Of a stretch of 64,000 nt of DNA, positions 38,206-63,958 are shown one piece after another; positions within the stretch are counted from its first letter, which is position 1, and each line of letters starts with the position of its first letter. The stretch comes from a virus: positions 264,604-328,603 of the IMG/VR virus record IMGVR_UViG_3300044972_002389, one strand, 5' to 3'. The notes under the pieces were generated by a model. That model was not told the DNA's origin. It saw only the letters and a program-made list of their open reading frames with translations, and did no database searches. The position numbers were made by a program, and so were the translations under genes.

Positions 38206-38378
38206 AAATAAGTGAATTATTGCTCAAACCATTAACTGAAATGGCCACAGGCGGGAGTAGCTCAGCTGGCTCTATCGCATCAGTAACCAATCCTTTTGGT
38301 ATTGTAATGAGACGCCCCAGTTTGTTTGGATATGTGCCAAACAAGCCAAAAAAGCGCAAAAAAAGTCGTAAACAATAA
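38202..38378 (+). CDS. Small basic virion-cluster protein (58 residues)
   Basis: ATG 38202 overlaps the upstream stop (ATGA) with GGAGGG just before it. It begins MKISELLLKPLTE, reads ATGGSSSAGSIASVTNP, and ends in a highly basic tail (KPKKRKKSRKQ). The helical start and basic end resemble small internal head proteins. Function is inferred from layout only. Confidence 0.65.
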   Translation: MKISELLLKPLTEMATGGSSSAGSIASVTNPFGIVMRRPSLFGYVPNKPKKRKKSRKQ

Positions 38379-53193: not shown

Positions 53194-53880
53194 ATGAACA
53201 CACTTGCTGCCGACTCCAGTTATGACGCCGGACTTCGAACGTTCATGCTGGGCATCTACAATCGAATGACAGCCGCCTTGGTTGTAACAGGAGCTACAGC
53301 TTGGCTGGTATCTAAATTTTTTGCCACTCTCATGACAGGATGGACAGGCATTGGCCTTATGCTCTTGCCCTTGGCATTTGTGTTGGTATTGAGTTTTGGT
53401 ATTGAACGACTCAGATACAGCACAGCCAATCTCCTGTTTTGGCTATTTTCTGCCAGCATGGGCTTGAGCATGAGCACAATTTTCCTCACGTTCACTGGCA
53501 CTAGTATTGCCACTGTGTTTTTCATTACCAGTGCCACTTTTGGTGCTGCCAGTGTGTATGGTTATGCTACCTCACGTGACTTAACAAGCATGGGTTCTTT
53601 CTTGATGGTGGGCCTAATTGGCGTATTGATAGCCAGTGTTGTGAACATTTGGCTAGCCAGTTCAATCTTGACCTTTGTTGTGAGCATTATTGGTGTTATT
53701 GTGTTTGTGGGGCTCACGGCTTACGACACACAAAACTTGAAGAATGATTACTACAGCAATGGTGAAGTGTTTGGATTGGACAGTCCAGCCAAAAGCAGTT
53801 TGTATGGGGCACTAAGTCTCTACTTGAACTTCATCAACATCTTTCAGCTGCTCCTCAACTTGATTGGTGATCGAGAATAA
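53194..53880 (+). CDS. Bax inhibitor-1 family membrane protein (YccA-like)
   Basis: 228 residues with about seven hydrophobic segments. The start YDAGLRTFMLGIYNRMTAAL and the core ATFGAASVYGYATSRDL, SFLMVGLIGVLIASVVNIW, VIVFVGLTAYDTQNLK and LSLYLNFINIFQLLL are typical of alphaproteobacterial BI-1 proteins. E. coli YccA, a relative, is a substrate and modulator of the FtsH protease. Ribosome site AAAAGGAA. It lies about 35 bases after the tmRNA, possibly on the same transcript, and ends with a strong terminator. Confidence 0.9.
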   Translation: MNTLAADSSYDAGLRTFMLGIYNRMTAALVVTGATAWLVSKFFATLMTGWTGIGLMLLPLAFVLVLSFGIERLRYSTANLLFWLFSASMGLSMSTIFLTFTGTSIATVFFITSATFGAASVYGYATSRDLTSMGSFLMVGLIGVLIASVVNIWLASSILTFVVSIIGVIVFVGLTAYDTQNLKNDYYSNGEVFGLDSPAKSSLYGALSLYLNFINIFQLLLNLIGDRE

Positions 53881-57300: not shown

Positions 57301-57309
57301 AATAAATAC
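57301..57309 (+). promoter_or_regulatory. Late promoter-like motif AATAAATAC
   Basis: 25 bases before the ATG at 57335, with GAGGAA as ribosome site. Confidence 0.5.
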
Positions 57310-57334: not shown

Positions 57335-57595
57335 ATGCAAGCCAACGAATTTGCCAAAAAGCCACAAAAACCTCAAAAAAAGACCACGCAATCCGTTGTT
57401 GCCAGTCCACCATCATTGGTTGAGAAAAAGTTAAAATTCAAAATCCCTCACCAAATGCGAGAGGTAACACACAATACCTCTCAACCTATGACAGGCGTGT
57501 TGCCTCCTGGTCACTCAGTGAAGCCAGGTAGTGAATTGGAACTGATTAGAGACACTGATCCAGACTTGTGGGCTCGTATATTGAGATGGGATTGA
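57335..57595 (+). CDS. Small hypothetical protein
   Basis: 86 residues. A basic, Pro/Lys/Gln-rich start (FAKKPQKPQKKTTQ) precedes a compact part (MTGVLPPGHSVKPGSELELI). It begins the late unit that continues with the AAA+ and VWA genes. Function unknown; it may be an adaptor for the ATPase. Confidence 0.55.
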   Translation: MQANEFAKKPQKPQKKTTQSVVASPPSLVEKKLKFKIPHQMREVTHNTSQPMTGVLPPGHSVKPGSELELIRDTDPDLWARILRWD

Positions 57596-57597
57596 AA

Positions 57598-60351
57598 ATG
57601 AAAACAAAAATTAGTAAAATTTTACAAAAAGCACTAGTTGAAGCCATAGCCCCAAGGGGTGGGCCCAAGAGCGCTCCTCCCGCCAAGCTAACAGTTAGTA
57701 GTGCCACCTTGGATTCAAGACTGGAGATGATTAACAATGTATTGGACAACATGTATGACCACATTAGTGGTATCCTGCTTGTTGGTCCTACAGGCATTGG
57801 AAAAACATCATTTGTTTATCAATTTAGTGAACTTATGGGCATGAATGCAGTAGTTGTGGAGGCACCGCATGTTAGTGAAGAGCACTTGGTTAACATTCCA
57901 TTTATGGTATATAATCCCATTAACAAAACCAAAAAAGCAGGCACTGACCAACTGACCCCAGTAGAGCCAGCAAGAAAAGCTGCTAAAAGTCCGAACCAAC
58001 CTATAGATATCAAAAAATGGGACGTAGTTTACGGTAAAAGCCATCTTGTAGCTTCCATTGAAGCGTTGAGGCCCGTAAGTGATCAAGAGCTCTTGAACCA
58101 CATGAACTCAAAATCTAGCAATAATACCAAAGCTCTTTGGAAAGGCTTAGGTGGCACCGAAACAACTATACCACCTAGAGTGGCTGAATTGCGTAGACGC
58201 TACAGCAGCATCCTATTCATTGATGAATTTATGCGTCAAGTAACAGGTGGGGTTCGTAATATTCTTCGTGATTTGGTTGTGGACAAGAAGGTTGGTGATA
58301 ATGACTTACCTCCCAACGTGTACTCTATGTATGCCAGCAACTTGAAGGATACTGGATCCCAGGGCACTGTTGAACAAATGCCCAGCTTTTACCAATTCCA
58401 ACAGATTCACTTCCCTACTCCCAGCAAGCAAGATTTTTTCCATTATTTGATTGCTGAATTTGAAAAAGATGGAGTTCATCTCAAGCCAGAAGTGGCAACA
58501 GCATTCTACAAAGCACTAGATGACAAACATATAAGTTATGATGATGCAGCATCAGAAATTCGCACCAGTCCTCGCCGGTGGGAGCAAATTATCAGTTATG
58601 TGAATGCAAGTGTTCCTGTCACTACAAAAGAACAAGCATCCTCTCTATTAGCAAACATAAAAGCTAATTTTGAAGATATTGATAAAGTAAGCAGTCTCTA
58701 TAAACTAGTTGATCAAATTGTACGTAATATTATTTGGGACACAAGTGGCGAGGACTTTGCAGGTGTGAAGGCAAATAGCCCTACCTTATGGCGTGATACA
58801 CTTATGCATCAAGTTGAAACAGCTGAAAAAATGGGCGATCAGAGAGCTTATGTTCCCATTGTTGCAGGTCAGCCTGGTATTGGCAAAACTGCGGAAATGA
58901 CTTCAATAGCTGACAAATTGAACTTAAGGCTTATAAGAATTTCTTGCACAAGTTTACGTCCTGAAGACGTTACTGGTATTCCATTGCCTGATGAAAAAGA
59001 GGGTAAATTTGATGTTAAGTTTGCTGATCCTCCGTTGTATCGAAAGATTATTGATCAAATGGAACAAAAAAAGGAAGCTTTTCTCAATTCACCAAAAATT
59101 TCAGAGGAGAGAAAACAAGAGTGGCTCGGCAAGCCCAAGCAATATTTGTTGTTCTTTGATGAATTCAACCGTCCTGAAGAAGCCACTACTTACAACACAC
59201 TGCGCCGTGTTATTTTGGACAAAAGTTTTACGGATGATATCAAGTTGCCCAAAAATCTAATTGTCGTTGCAGCCATGAATCCAACAGACCTTAAAGTCCA
59301 GCCACTCACAGGTCATATGAAAGATGCGACTGACTATATAGCAACAGCCCCACGTTGGAGCTCACAGAAAGAATTTCATGATACCTCTTTGCTGCGACCA
59401 GACCTAAGTGAGGAAGCATCCACTATTGCCCGGATGTTGGTTCATAACTTTGCTGAAAAATTTAAGCTGGATGTTCCTGACCCTAGCAAAAACATAGATT
59501 CTGAAAGCAGGCAATTCTATATTCAAGTGGGAGATGATGATGTATATATGTCAGGTAGAGAGTATTCAGACATGTTACTGGCCATGCAGCGTGGATTGGA
59601 TCGGGTAGTTAACAAAAAAGATCAGTATGTGCTGCCCAATGGTGAATTTGATAGCGACGGCTATATTGATGCCTTACTGCGCATGGCTAGCACAAAAATC
59701 ATGATGACACTAGACAATGTTTTGCACAAAAATCAAATTGACAGAGAAATGTTTGTTGACCAACTGGATCTTTGGTTGCAAGAACAACGAGAACTATTGA
59801 CCAGCAGTCAAACAACCGGAACCAGTTTGGAAAGCTTGTTTGACAATGCAGTTCGCAATCCCAAGAAGCATCTCAAAGACAATGCAGCATTTATGAATTG
59901 GGTTGATACACAATTTAGCCCAGCTGACTTCACCAATGAGTTCCTAGCTTGGTTAACAAACGTTGCTGCACAAGAGGCCAACAAGTTTGATCTGTTGGTC
60001 AGCAAAACGCATAACAAAAAAGTCATACAAGATGGTGTAGTTCAAATAACTGATGATTTGATCGACAAAGTGAACTTCATTGTTGATGAAATTATCATGG
60101 CAATGAATGTTCACAAGCTCAGTAGCCAAATTGGACAAAGTATGGAAGCTGCATTGAGAAAGTTTTGGACCAGTGTGTTCATTGCTGATATTGAAAGAAT
60201 GGAAGAAGAGGCTAAAGATCTTGCCAAAACTGATAAGGCTGCATCAAAAGCTGCCTTGGCTGCTGTAGAGGGGTATCAAAACACGTTGATGGATTATCAA
60301 CGCAAGGTTGCAGCCAAAGTAAGAAGTTTCAGAAAACCCGCAGGAACATAA
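57598..60351 (+). CDS. Double AAA+ ATPase, MoxR-like
   Basis: 917 residues from ATG 57598. Two AAA+ modules: Walker A LLVGPTGIGKTSF (about 61-73) with Walker B SILFIDEFMR (about 204-213); and Walker A VAGQPGIGKTAEM (about 422-434) with Walker B LLFFDEFNRPEEA (about 517-529). The second has VVAAMNPTDLK as sensor 1. The C-terminal 300 residues are helical. MoxR-type ATPases work with VWA proteins as chaperones or metal inserters; the next gene has that domain, 18 bases away. Confidence 0.8.
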   Translation: MKTKISKILQKALVEAIAPRGGPKSAPPAKLTVSSATLDSRLEMINNVLDNMYDHISGILLVGPTGIGKTSFVYQFSELMGMNAVVVEAPHVSEEHLVNIPFMVYNPINKTKKAGTDQLTPVEPARKAAKSPNQPIDIKKWDVVYGKSHLVASIEALRPVSDQELLNHMNSKSSNNTKALWKGLGGTETTIPPRVAELRRRYSSILFIDEFMRQVTGGVRNILRDLVVDKKVGDNDLPPNVYSMYASNLKDTGSQGTVEQMPSFYQFQQIHFPTPSKQDFFHYLIAEFEKDGVHLKPEVATAFYKALDDKHISYDDAASEIRTSPRRWEQIISYVNASVPVTTKEQASSLLANIKANFEDIDKVSSLYKLVDQIVRNIIWDTSGEDFAGVKANSPTLWRDTLMHQVETAEKMGDQRAYVPIVAGQPGIGKTAEMTSIADKLNLRLIRISCTSLRPEDVTGIPLPDEKEGKFDVKFADPPLYRKIIDQMEQKKEAFLNSPKISEERKQEWLGKPKQYLLFFDEFNRPEEATTYNTLRRVILDKSFTDDIKLPKNLIVVAAMNPTDLKVQPLTGHMKDATDYIATAPRWSSQKEFHDTSLLRPDLSEEASTIARMLVHNFAEKFKLDVPDPSKNIDSESRQFYIQVGDDDVYMSGREYSDMLLAMQRGLDRVVNKKDQYVLPNGEFDSDGYIDALLRMASTKIMMTLDNVLHKNQIDREMFVDQLDLWLQEQRELLTSSQTTGTSLESLFDNAVRNPKKHLKDNAAFMNWVDTQFSPADFTNEFLAWLTNVAAQEANKFDLLVSKTHNKKVIQDGVVQITDDLIDKVNFIVDEIIMAMNVHKLSSQIGQSMEAALRKFWTSVFIADIERMEEEAKDLAKTDKAASKAALAAVEGYQNTLMDYQRKVAAKVRSFRKPAGT

Positions 60352-60369
60352 TCAAAGATAGGACGAACA

Positions 60370-62775
60370 ATGGCATTTTCTGTCAAGAGCAATTTAGCCA
60401 AAACACTTTTGGCGTTGGATACCAAGACCTCAGTAACCCCCAAAACAAGGGTTGCTGAGGCTTGGACTATGCGGGCACGCGAAATGGGCGAAACGCCCTT
60501 CAAAAAATCCACACTTCAAGATCGGCACATACAAGAAGTGTTGCAGCATGCCAGTATGGTTACTGGGGTCCCGCTCCCTGATATTGAGCGAGCCATGCAG
60601 AAAAAAATGGCTGAGATTGAAGAGATCAAAAAGTACAGCCCTATTCTCTATGAAACCATTGCTCATAATGCTGCTGAAAATGCTGTATTTGATTTGGTAA
60701 GCAGTGTGCGAAGTAATGTAATGGATCCGCATCCAAGTTTACTAAAATTTGATGAAATAACTTTCCTCAAACTGGCCCGAATGGTTCAGGCGGAGCACCC
60801 TATGTTTCGCCCATTGAAACAACCTGCTGATCCAATCCGTAGAGTGTGGAAAGTTACTCCAATCTTGGTACCTAGTAACCTGCGTGAATACAAAAAGTAC
60901 AATGGTGTGAACACTGCTTGTGCAACTGCTCAAGGTGACTTTGTATTCAACAAACCGTTCATGCAAAACTTGATGGATTGGGCAGTTATTGAAGGTGTTC
61001 ACCCCCAAGGCAAAAAATATCACAGCAATGGAGGTCCCATTCCTGATGCCTATGTGTATGTGGAATTTTTGATTATGCATGAGTACATGCATTTTGCCTA
61101 TGGCGATTTCAATTATAGCAAACAATTGCCGCAATTCAATCACAAAGTTCACAACTGGGCTTCAGATTTCAGGAGCAATTACGACCTCGTTAAAAACAAC
61201 TTTGCGCAATTGCCTATTGGGTTGTTCAGTGATCACATCAATAGTGATCGGCAAGGCAGCTACACTGACATGGCACAGCTGGTTCACGATGAACTCAAAA
61301 AACTGCCACCACATTTGCAGAAATTGTGGGAAAAAATAGCCAAAATTGATGAAGAACCCAACAAACCCAAAACGCCTAAAAAAACCAGCACTAAACCGCC
61401 ACCGCCTGTGATCAAGGTGCGGTATAGGGCAAGTGAGAGTGATGTTGTAAGGCTCCCAGATGGTACATATGGGCAGGTTACAAAAGTTGATCCGGATGGA
61501 AGTTTTGATACCCGTCCACTAACGCAGGACGAGGCAACACAACTGCTCAATTATCCCAAAGGCTATCGTGTGCGGGCTAATCCACAAATAACAGAAAGCA
61601 AGAGAAAAAGGATTTTGTTGGAAGGCCGTTGGAAGCCTGATGATGTGATTTGGATGAAACCCAAGCGGGACAAACCTACTCCTCCACCTCAACCTCCTGA
61701 GCCCCCATTACCACCTGAACCGGAAGATGATGAGGACGAACCAACACCGCCTCCTGTAATTGACATGGAGGGGGAAGATCCACCACCTGACGAAGATGAT
61801 GAAGGAGAAGGAAGCAGTGGTGGTGAAGAAGGTGAAGACGAGGAAGAGGACGGTAAGGAAGGCAAAGGCAAAGACGAAAAAGAGAAAGAAAAGAAAAAAG
61901 AAAAAGTCTTTGGCCCGTCTCCAGATGAAATAGCTGAAAAACTCAAGGACCAGATCAAGGATTCTAACATTACACCTCGGCCAGGGACTCCTAGTGGTAG
62001 AGACGATCCCCGGATGGGTCCTGGCCAAGCTGGCAGTCCTGGTGGCGCAGGGGCATTGCCTTTGGGTTCTGCCAAAAAGCGTGTTGAAGACATCAAGCCG
62101 CATATGAATTGGAAACAGTTGATCAAGTTGATGGTGTCCAGTAGTCAATTGGCAACAGACACATCGTACACCAAGCCCAGCAGGAGAAACATCACAGGTG
62201 CGCCCATAGCTGCCAAGTTAGGGGCTGCTGCAATCAAACCTGGTCAAGTCAAGCGACCTGTTCCCATCAACAAAGTGTTGCTTGCATTCGACACATCAGG
62301 TAGCATGTGGGGGTTTGTACCTACTGCCTTGAAAGAGGCTGAAATGCTCTTGAAGCAGTTGGGCAAAGTTGATTATCCTTTTGGTGTTATGTTCTGGGCT
62401 GGTAGTCACGAAAGCTTTGTGGTAAACCAAGGACAAGATTTTTATGCTCCTGTTGACAACTTGCGCCAACTTAATGAACCTGTAGACAAAAGCAAACAAA
62501 TCAAGGGCTGGAACAATGTTTTGAAACAGCATGGCACAGGTGGCACAATGTTTACACCTGCAATGGTAAGCGAGCTATCTGCTGCTGCCTCAGATGGTTT
62601 CAATATTTTGATATTCTCAGATACTGACCTATTGGACAATCAAAATTGGCTCAACTTCCTGAAATTGTGGAAAGCACACAAAGCCAATGTGTTTTGTGTG
62701 TTCAACGATGAACCAAGTTGGCGTAAGGCAGTGAAAAAAGTGGGACAAAATACACCACATTTTACTCATTTGTAA
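60370..62775 (+). CDS. Metallopeptidase-like plus VWA-like protein (DUF2201-type)
   Basis: 801 residues. An HExxH motif occurs at about 237-241 (LIMHEYMHFAYGDF), followed by VHNWASDFRSNYDL with a further ligand-like Asp, as in DUF2201 metallopeptidase-like domains. Residues about 430-560 are a Pro- and acid-rich linker. The VWA domain near 640-760 has MIDAS DTSGSMWG, GTGGTMFTP and FSDTDL. The domain pair and the AAA+ partner upstream suggest an ATP-driven remodelling or proteolysis complex. The target is unknown. Confidence 0.75.
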   Translation: MAFSVKSNLAKTLLALDTKTSVTPKTRVAEAWTMRAREMGETPFKKSTLQDRHIQEVLQHASMVTGVPLPDIERAMQKKMAEIEEIKKYSPILYETIAHNAAENAVFDLVSSVRSNVMDPHPSLLKFDEITFLKLARMVQAEHPMFRPLKQPADPIRRVWKVTPILVPSNLREYKKYNGVNTACATAQGDFVFNKPFMQNLMDWAVIEGVHPQGKKYHSNGGPIPDAYVYVEFLIMHEYMHFAYGDFNYSKQLPQFNHKVHNWASDFRSNYDLVKNNFAQLPIGLFSDHINSDRQGSYTDMAQLVHDELKKLPPHLQKLWEKIAKIDEEPNKPKTPKKTSTKPPPPVIKVRYRASESDVVRLPDGTYGQVTKVDPDGSFDTRPLTQDEATQLLNYPKGYRVRANPQITESKRKRILLEGRWKPDDVIWMKPKRDKPTPPPQPPEPPLPPEPEDDEDEPTPPPVIDMEGEDPPPDEDDEGEGSSGGEEGEDEEEDGKEGKGKDEKEKEKKKEKVFGPSPDEIAEKLKDQIKDSNITPRPGTPSGRDDPRMGPGQAGSPGGAGALPLGSAKKRVEDIKPHMNWKQLIKLMVSSSQLATDTSYTKPSRRNITGAPIAAKLGAAAIKPGQVKRPVPINKVLLAFDTSGSMWGFVPTALKEAEMLLKQLGKVDYPFGVMFWAGSHESFVVNQGQDFYAPVDNLRQLNEPVDKSKQIKGWNNVLKQHGTGGTMFTPAMVSELSAAASDGFNILIFSDTDLLDNQNWLNFLKLWKAHKANVFCVFNDEPSWRKAVKKVGQNTPHFTHL

Positions 62776-62777
62776 TC

Positions 62778-63413
62778 ATGCAGGCAGAGATTCATCCGCT
62801 AGACTGGGTTTACAAAAATTTTGATGTGCCTAGCACAACCAAAATCTCCTTGAGTCCCAGTAATGAGATAGTTGTTGACGGTGATATTGTAGCTTGGGGA
62901 GTAGGGCAATCCTTTCCCCAGCTACCTGTGCGTTTCAAAAAAGTCACAGGCGTCTGCGGCTTTGCCAGCATGGGGCTTGAATCTCTCTTAGGTGCGCCAC
63001 AAGAGTGCGGGTCCTTTTATTGCTCTGGTAACGAACTAGAGTCTCTTGAACATGGACCAACAACGATTGTAGGCGGCGAATACAATTGCTCTTATAATCG
63101 TTTGAGTGATTTAACAGGCCTGCCCACTGAAATTCCAGGCAGGCTCAGCTGCCATGGTAACTGGTTAACCTCCTTACAAGGGTTTCCTAACCACGTTGGA
63201 ACAAGTGTTGACTTAACATGGCACAATAGTTTGCCTTTGTTGAGAACTTTGGTTGCTAAGGAAGTTGGGTTCTCAAACACAGGTGACACTTTCGAGAAGG
63301 CTTACCAGGTAGCCAAGATATTGAACAAATACGCAGGACAAGGCAAACGTGCCATGTTTGATTGCCAAAAAGACTTGGAAGATGCAGGATTTGAAGGAAA
63401 TGCAAGATGGTAG
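62778..63413 (+). CDS. Leucine-rich-repeat-like protein, family member 1
   Basis: 211 residues starting two bases after the VWA gene. The middle has about five short repeats of the type F-x-C-S-x-N-x-L-x-S-L-x-G-x-P (GSFYCSGNELESLEHGP, YNCSYNRLSDLTGLP, LSCHGNWLTSLQGFP). The C-terminus KRAMFDCQKDLEDAGF is shared with the next gene. Such repeats bind proteins. The stop overlaps the next ATG as ATGGTAG. Confidence 0.7.
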   Translation: MQAEIHPLDWVYKNFDVPSTTKISLSPSNEIVVDGDIVAWGVGQSFPQLPVRFKKVTGVCGFASMGLESLLGAPQECGSFYCSGNELESLEHGPTTIVGGEYNCSYNRLSDLTGLPTEIPGRLSCHGNWLTSLQGFPNHVGTSVDLTWHNSLPLLRTLVAKEVGFSNTGDTFEKAYQVAKILNKYAGQGKRAMFDCQKDLEDAGFEGNARW

Positions 63414-63958
63414 ACAAAAATGAAATAATGGAGTTGTTTGAAAAATATTTTAAAACAGCTGATGAGATAACCATTGACGATAAGGGATTGGTCTCTTGTA
63501 CTGGAGATGTAGGTCTCCAACCAGAACTGAAGCACGAGAGGTTACCTGTGTCTTTTGATATGGTTGATGGTGATTTCTGGTGCCACAACAACCAGCTCAC
63601 AACACTTGAAGGTGCACCCACTTCAGTTGGTGGTGATTTCGGGTGCTACCACAACCAGCTCACAACACTTGAAGGTGCACCCACTTCAGTTGGTGGTGAT
63701 TTCAGGTGCTACCACAACCAGCTCACCTCACTTGAAGGCATGCCAGCCGTAGAAGGAACCTTGTGGCTCTCCTACAGCCCCACGTTGCCACTGCTTCGTT
63801 GTTTGCTCGCAAAAGAGATTCAACTGTATCCCAAAGATGGGAAGCACAAAACAGCTGAAAAAATTCTCAATCGATACGCAGGGCAAGGCAAACGAGCAAT
63901 GTTTGACTGCCAAAAAGACTTGGAAGATGCAGGCTTTGAAGGAAATGCCAGATGGTAG
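63407..63958 (+). CDS. Leucine-rich-repeat-like protein, family member 2
   Basis: 183 residues. Three near-identical 21-residue repeats (HNQLTTLEGAPTSVGGDF) are framed by a conserved N-terminal helix (NEIMELFEKYFKTADEITI) and the same C-terminal tail as member 1. The tail is nearly identical in DNA and protein. Joined to the next copy through ATGGTAG. Confidence 0.7.
   Translation: MVDKNEIMELFEKYFKTADEITIDDKGLVSCTGDVGLQPELKHERLPVSFDMVDGDFWCHNNQLTTLEGAPTSVGGDFGCYHNQLTTLEGAPTSVGGDFRCYHNQLTSLEGMPAVEGTLWLSYSPTLPLLRCLLAKEIQLYPKDGKHKTAEKILNRYAGQGKRAMFDCQKDLEDAGFEGNARW
63569..63757 (+). repeat. 63-bp tandem repeat, three copies
   Basis: Units begin at 63569, 63632 and 63695, in frame, with only a few base changes. 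They encode the LRR-like units of member 2. Confidence 0.9.

Follow-up and report, generated by a model that had tools for sequence, protein, structure and literature searches.

The locus at 57598–62775, in which a MoxR-like ATPase with two AAA+ modules in one chain is followed by a VWA protein that also carries an HExxH motif, raises the question of whether such a pair is a machine not yet described, as an earlier note on this DNA proposed, and what it would do for the virus. A virus record of 328,603 bp ends on the right with the 64-kb stretch of DNA that was analyzed (the window). Two open reading frames lie on its + strand, with the ATPase gene running from an ATG at 57598 to a stop at 60351 (917 aa) and the partner gene from an ATG at 60370 to a stop at 62775 (801 aa). 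The spacing of 18 nt, the strands and the coordinates are exactly those given in the earlier note. Judged from its genes the source is a tailed giant phage, since topoisomerase II, ribonucleotide reductase, a DnaB-type helicase and virion structural genes are present. Its nearest cultured relatives, as identified via the topoisomerase, are Sinorhizobium phage Phosso and Agrobacterium phage Atu_ph07 (53% identity), and a nearest-relative DNA search of the phage collection found no DNA-level relative of the window. The identity of the gene pair and its conservation, described below, are assigned with very high confidence.

Architecture of the two proteins

The features of the locus are as follows, where invariance refers to alignments of 25 ATPases and 20 partners.

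57335..57595, + strand: 86-aa ORF immediately preceding the ATPase gene, perhaps transcribed with it as the first gene (97.7% aa identity in locus L004)
57598..60351, + strand: tandem-AAA+ MoxR-like ATPase, 917 aa (ORF, Pfam/PHROGs matches, alignments)
57697..58689, + strand: AAA+ module 1, ~residues 34–364, edges approximate (alignments; phrog_1297 match)
57784–57807, + strand: module 1 Walker A, GPTGIGKT (alignment)
58210–58227, + strand: module 1 Walker B, ILFIDE (alignment)
58567–58581, + strand: module 1 SPRRW sensor-2 motif, with sensor-1 Asn 248 in the same module (alignment)
58777..59733, + strand: AAA+ module 2, ~residues 394–712, edges approximate (PHROGs, alignments)
58867–58890, + strand: module 2 Walker A, GQPGIGKT (alignment)
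59146–59172, + strand: module 2 Walker B, LLFFDEFNR, MoxR-like DExNR (alignment)
Residues 561 and 654, + strand: module 2 sensor-1 Asn and sensor-2 Arg (alignment)
59734..60348, + strand: ATPase C-terminal tail, poorly conserved, predominantly helical in a low-confidence model (alignment, model)
60370..62775, + strand: HExxH + VWA partner, 801 aa, DUF2201-related (Pfam, PHROGs, alignment, hhalign)
60916..61299, + strand: zincin-like domain, ~residues 183–310 (hhalign pairs its HExxH with the canonical DUF2201 HExxH)
61078..61092, + strand: HEYMH (HExxH), residues 237–241; H237, E238 and H241 invariant
61153..61179, + strand: NxxxDxxxN motif (N262, D266, N270), invariant, aligning with canonical NMANDYVIN
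61360..62091, + strand: length-variable Pro/Asp/Glu-rich linker with a small segment, ~residues 339–422, bearing a weak resemblance to a small stand-alone gene of L095/L098
62269..62772, + strand: VWA domain, ~residues 634–801 (invariant columns)
62290–62304, 62545–62547 and 62620–62622, + strand: MIDAS DTSGS (641–645), T726 and D751 (invariant columns)

Both AAA+ modules of the ATPase are intact, each with its own Walker A and Walker B set, in agreement with the earlier note. The Pfam AAA family is matched in two stretches (E=1e-12), and phrog_1297 is matched by both modules. Matches to the AAA_5/AAA_3 Pfam families and to McrB, midasin and 2r44, together with the DExNR form of Walker B, place the ATPase in the MoxR/helix-2-insert group, an assignment at the level of the clade rather than of a finer position within it.

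The partner comprises an N-terminal region, the HExxH domain, the N-x3-D-x3-N motif, a long linker and a VWA domain whose MIDAS is complete, and the HExxH that had been noticed in the VWA protein is thus the HEYMH lying alongside a MIDAS-bearing VWA domain. The 18-nt gap and the invariance of Asp-641, Ser-643, Ser-645, Thr-726 and Asp-751 identify it as the VWA neighbor of the ATPase, and the conserved HExxH and a putative third ligand make it metalloprotease-like, with His-237, Glu-238, His-241 and Asp-266 all invariant. Asp-266 is the candidate for this third metal ligand. Pfam matches the protein to DUF2201_N, "putative metallopeptidase," with PF13203 above the cut-off, and PHROGs assigns it to 1314, labeled "HNH endonuclease." The latter label was rejected, since the protein is an HExxH + VWA protein and a putative metallopeptidase in Pfam. 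DUF2201 proteins with HExxH and VWA are often mislabeled "HNH endonuclease" in phage records, which conceals the family. Structure models built from two-sequence alignments were both poor (pLDDT 34 and 47).

Genomic surroundings of the pair

A late-type promoter had been placed at 57301 (AATAAATA), a reading that is not supported, as the motif is not enriched. ATAAATA occurs five and three times on the two strands of the window compared with 4.2 expected per strand, and the T4-type octamer TATAAATA occurs once in the 64 kb, on the other strand. Sigma-70-like sites are at chance level. Across the whole 328.6-kb record the longer motif ACAATAAATACCNTTG is matched exactly at two places only, both in the window. 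The string ACAATAAATACC(C/T)TTG is found exactly twice in the 328.6-kb record, at window positions 38374 and 57301, each time ~30–45 nt upstream of a start codon. The site at 57301 precedes the 86-aa ORF and not the ATPase gene directly; the counterpart of this ORF in L004 has an early in-frame stop, and a weak match is present in L048.

Gene context was considered as a clue to function and rejected, since no gene family recurs generally around the pair beyond the pair itself and a family of LRR-like repeats, the rest being confined to a handful of loci. Topoisomerase II, RNR and Bax1 neighbors recur in 4 of 30 loci only, and the other recurring clusters are opposite-strand ORFs overlapping the two genes. 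Adjacent genes with LRR-like "LTTLEGAPTSVGG" repeats lie directly downstream of the pair in the window (62778–63958), in L004 (9253–12048) and in L052, and the shared ends of neighboring repeat-gene copies suggest duplication. A gene for a Bax-inhibitor-1 family membrane protein (Pfam E=9e-53) is located at 53194–53880 of the window, just before topoisomerase II, and is also present in L004, L048 and L052.

The two-module family and its one-module relatives

Profile-guided scans identified 32 distinct full-length tandem ATPases, 31 of them in virus records (window included) and one on a MAG contig binned as Omnitrophota, which is perhaps viral itself. A tblastn search of 50,697 phage records returned no tandem ATPase, the matches there being N4-type ATPases aligned over module 2, and by these searches the two-module form is so far found in uncultured viruses only. 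The Walker A and Walker B sets of both modules are kept in 32/32 tandem ATPases, and the sensor-1 Asn and sensor-2 Arg of both modules show little or no variation. All 30 linked partners retain HExxH, and all 25 with a complete C terminus retain the MIDAS DxSGS. Identity of the ATPases to that of the window is 23–42% in all but one of the 25 aligned and falls to about 21–25% across the family. Invariance of the relevant residues in these 25 ATPases and in the 20 aligned partners excludes chance as the source of the pattern. A partner is linked to the tandem ATPase in 30 of the 32 loci; in 29 it follows the ATPase directly (−50 to +439 nt), and in L113 it lies upstream, whereas none was found near the tandem ATPase in L059 and L064. 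The pairing appears obligate on the basis of this linkage, and neither a lack of conservation of the pair nor a loss of HExxH among the 30 partners was observed, the two outcomes in relatives that the earlier note had named as speaking against its reading.

The class to which the pair belongs is already known in one-module form. Phage N4 gp24/gp25 is a single-AAA MoxR-type pair (PMC2784036, PMC4193335), and both genes are among the 14 core genes of N4-like phages (PMC4193335). The pair of phage 0305phi8-36 was earlier annotated as a MoxR-type chaperonin pair (PMC2147016). Iyer et al. (2021) describe a MoxR-vWA-metallopeptidase pair of the same class in group 2.2 jumbo phages and propose, with the same chaperone-plus-peptidase logic, virion assembly and proteolytic processing as its role; their passages on the pair mention no two-module ATPase (PMC7824862). 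With these reports on N4, 0305phi8-36 and jumbo phages, both the class and the main idea of the earlier note are already published. Its MoxR-VWA logic is supported, and its claim of a machine not yet described is not, given the single-AAA pair; no description of a tandem-AAA MoxR phage protein was found in open-access papers. The two-module form is the new element.

The canonical pair was found in Atu_ph07 (gp264/gp263), Phosso (246/247), Asteriusvirus-type phages and phAPEC6 (gp265c/gp264c), and a DUF2201 relative is encoded in 825 of the 50,697 phage records. The canonical ATPase of Atu_ph07 is single-module; ASV44729/ASV44728, the examples of Iyer et al., are presumably the Atu_ph07 proteins. 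In 75 of 80 canonical loci in IMG/VR the ATPase gene is on the same strand, and in 74 of those it lies upstream; HExxH was matched in 78 of the 80, with no motif match in the other two. The partner in LIT1 has HEIEH and a VWA domain, and Atu_ph07 gp263 (L029:3254–4543) reads HQILH in place of HExxH, the catalytic Glu being lost.

For the partner, kinship with the canonical form is visible with profiles only. Direct BLASTP of the partner against LIT1 gp25 gave no significant match, whereas hhalign aligned the partner with canonical DUF2201 over both HExxH and VWA (99.6%, E=1e-23) and module 2 with the canonical ATPase (E=2e-18); within the tandem family PF13203 is matched by 17 of 20 partners and phrog_1314 by 18 of 20. 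The N4 gp24/gp25-type pair (PHROG 1297 + 1314; PF13203 + PF09967) shares with the tandem form the order of an ATPase gene followed on the same strand by an HExxH + VWA gene, homology of both proteins and the N-D-N motif after HExxH. In contrast to the N4-type pair, with one AAA+ module, an ATPase of about 355–440 aa and a partner of roughly 410–470 aa, the tandem form has two modules in an ATPase of about 830–975 aa without inteins, and a partner of 596–801 aa with an additional N-terminal region and a long linker. RavA-ViaA of Escherichia coli and other bacterial MoxR-VWA couples likewise have a MoxR-like AAA+ gene adjoining that of a VWA cofactor; these couples have one AAA+ module and, to our knowledge, no HExxH domain has been described in their VWA partner. 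Midasin/Rea1 resembles the window pair in that a MIDAS domain goes together with multiple AAA+ modules from the same broad clade, and the module 1 profile matches midasin 6or5 (E=3e-5). However, midasin/Rea1 carries six AAA+ modules and the MIDAS in one chain, whereas the window pair has two modules, its MIDAS on a separate protein and an added HExxH.

In a maximum-likelihood tree, module 1, module 2 and the canonical ATPases form three separate supported groups, indicating that the doubling or fusion is ancient. The tandem modules do not cluster with the canonical ATPases and two modules, not one, are present in 32 of 32, which makes the tandem proteins a sister family outside the canonical orthologue group. 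By hhalign the two modules are mutual best matches (E=1e-20, compared with 5e-16 and 5e-18 to the canonical ATPase), a profile closeness that suits an internal duplication as their origin, short of proof. A canonical ATPase gene (98.1–99.3 kb) and a canonical HExxH + VWA gene (112.9–114.2 kb), ~13.7 kb apart, are also encoded by the same virus (G000), and both forms are present on the 360-kb contig G003; the tandem form thus constitutes a second, paralogous machine. On the 342-kb contig G004 the tandem form alone was seen, and the G003 and G004 contigs may be incomplete. At ~100–113 kb of G000 (L043:6899–14968, L032:1–6900) a minus-strand block separates the canonical pair and encodes probable glycan-modifying enzymes and a repeat-rich tail-fiber-like protein.

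Two further features of the family bear on its parts. In five lineages (L052, L065, L070, L095, L098) HExxH and VWA are on separate neighboring genes, each matching its own half of the profile, and the two need therefore not be one polypeptide; in L095 and L098 a 121-aa ORF between the split genes weakly resembles the linker segment of the window protein (pairwise E about 5e-4). LAGLIDADG-containing insertions lie exactly in the Walker A of module 1 (L073:6804–10514) and of module 2 (L097:4363–8007) and are read, from sequence, as inteins. Inteins favor essential active sites, and their presence in both Walker A motifs suggests that both P-loops matter.

Possible function of the pair

The two genes may encode one ATP-driven MoxR-VWA protein-remodeling machine, a divergent paralogue of the N4 gp24/gp25-type pair. 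By analogy with RavA-ViaA, CbbQ-CbbO and midasin, the tandem ATPase would assemble into a ring of two tiers (or of double modules). A VWA domain whose MIDAS holds a metal would select and dock clients and/or attach to the ring, and ATP hydrolysis in one or both tiers would remodel the client. The HExxH domain, carried on the flexible acidic linker, could then carry out limited cleavage of the client once this has been unfolded or repositioned. The likeliest clients are viral proteins undergoing assembly, either of the virion or of the replication complex. The gene pair, its domains and active sites, their conservation, the linkage and the coexistence with the canonical form are observed, including conserved residues at both AAA+ sites, the HExxH and the MIDAS, and the ring, the docking and the cutting are modeled on the related systems. 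Remodeling plus cleavage of viral clients is the best explanation, about as apt to prove right as wrong. Virion maturation is a plausible role, and virion assembly the likeliest, though weakly supported, setting. The virions of phAPEC6 contain gp265c, annotated as a MoxR ATPase (6 peptides, 19% coverage), and the partner gp264c is absent from the list (PMC7247149). Topoisomerase, RecA, SSB and thymidylate synthase are also among the listed proteins, which makes carry-over likely. In virions of Staphylococcus phage DC4 an AAA+ ATPase adjoining a metallopeptidase (UFVDC4_00011) was detected by one peptide; the authors urge caution, and their list includes likely carry-over proteins. More tentatively, at clearly less than even confidence, the tandem proteins may be a distinct, unrecognized two-engine MoxR family, kept beside the ordinary pair to process a client which that pair cannot handle.

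The machine could be a pure chaperone in which the zincin fold binds metal without catalysis and the HExxH is structural or client-binding, as the HQILH of the Atu_ph07 homologue, by lacking the catalytic Glu, indicates that HExxH need not mean proteolysis, and as RavA-ViaA and the MoxR-vWA system of ATV work without a peptidase (PMC7824862, PMC10585395). A non-catalytic site would, however, be expected to lose the Glu more often than is seen: every one of the 30 partners in the tandem family has it despite low sequence identity, as do 78 of 80 canonical loci, and we regard this reading as doubtful. No biochemical test of the partner peptidase was found. The client, too, could be a different one, if the machine is directed at the host and remodels or degrades a host complex (polymerase, defense complex, protease) early in infection. 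N4 gp24/gp25 are middle and not late transcripts (PMC4193335), the canonical pair of Atu_ph07 and Phosso sits amid RNA ligase, glutaredoxin and DNA polymerase genes, and conflict systems repeatedly include MoxR-vWA couples (PMC7159879). An internal viral client is nevertheless better suited to a canonical pair that is core over very different hosts (825 phage records), and the small terminase gene and structural genes are the neighbors of the pair in Asteriusvirus-type phages. A host-directed role is the main alternative but seems the less likely one. With PADLOC the ATPase drew weak P-loop matches only and the partner drew none, and an anti-phage defense system was rejected. It is highly improbable that the two modules represent a recent artefact of assembly, or a degenerate duplication that left one of them without activity; their mutual best match is expected of an internal duplication, but both are retained in 32/32 ATPases with Walker A/B, sensor 1 and the sensor-2 Arg, and the three tree groups argue for an old event.

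The gp24/gp25-type pair is widespread in phages without a known job, being core in N4-like phages and present in many giants. The two-module paralogue offers an independent, deeply conserved comparison that shows which residues the class cannot lose, namely both ATPase sites, the HExxH and the MIDAS; it also shows that separate genes may encode the peptidase part and the VWA part. This comparison makes it directly testable whether the machine is a chaperone, a protease or both, and the two-module form may shed light on the origin of midasin and other multi-module motors of the MoxR-like kind.
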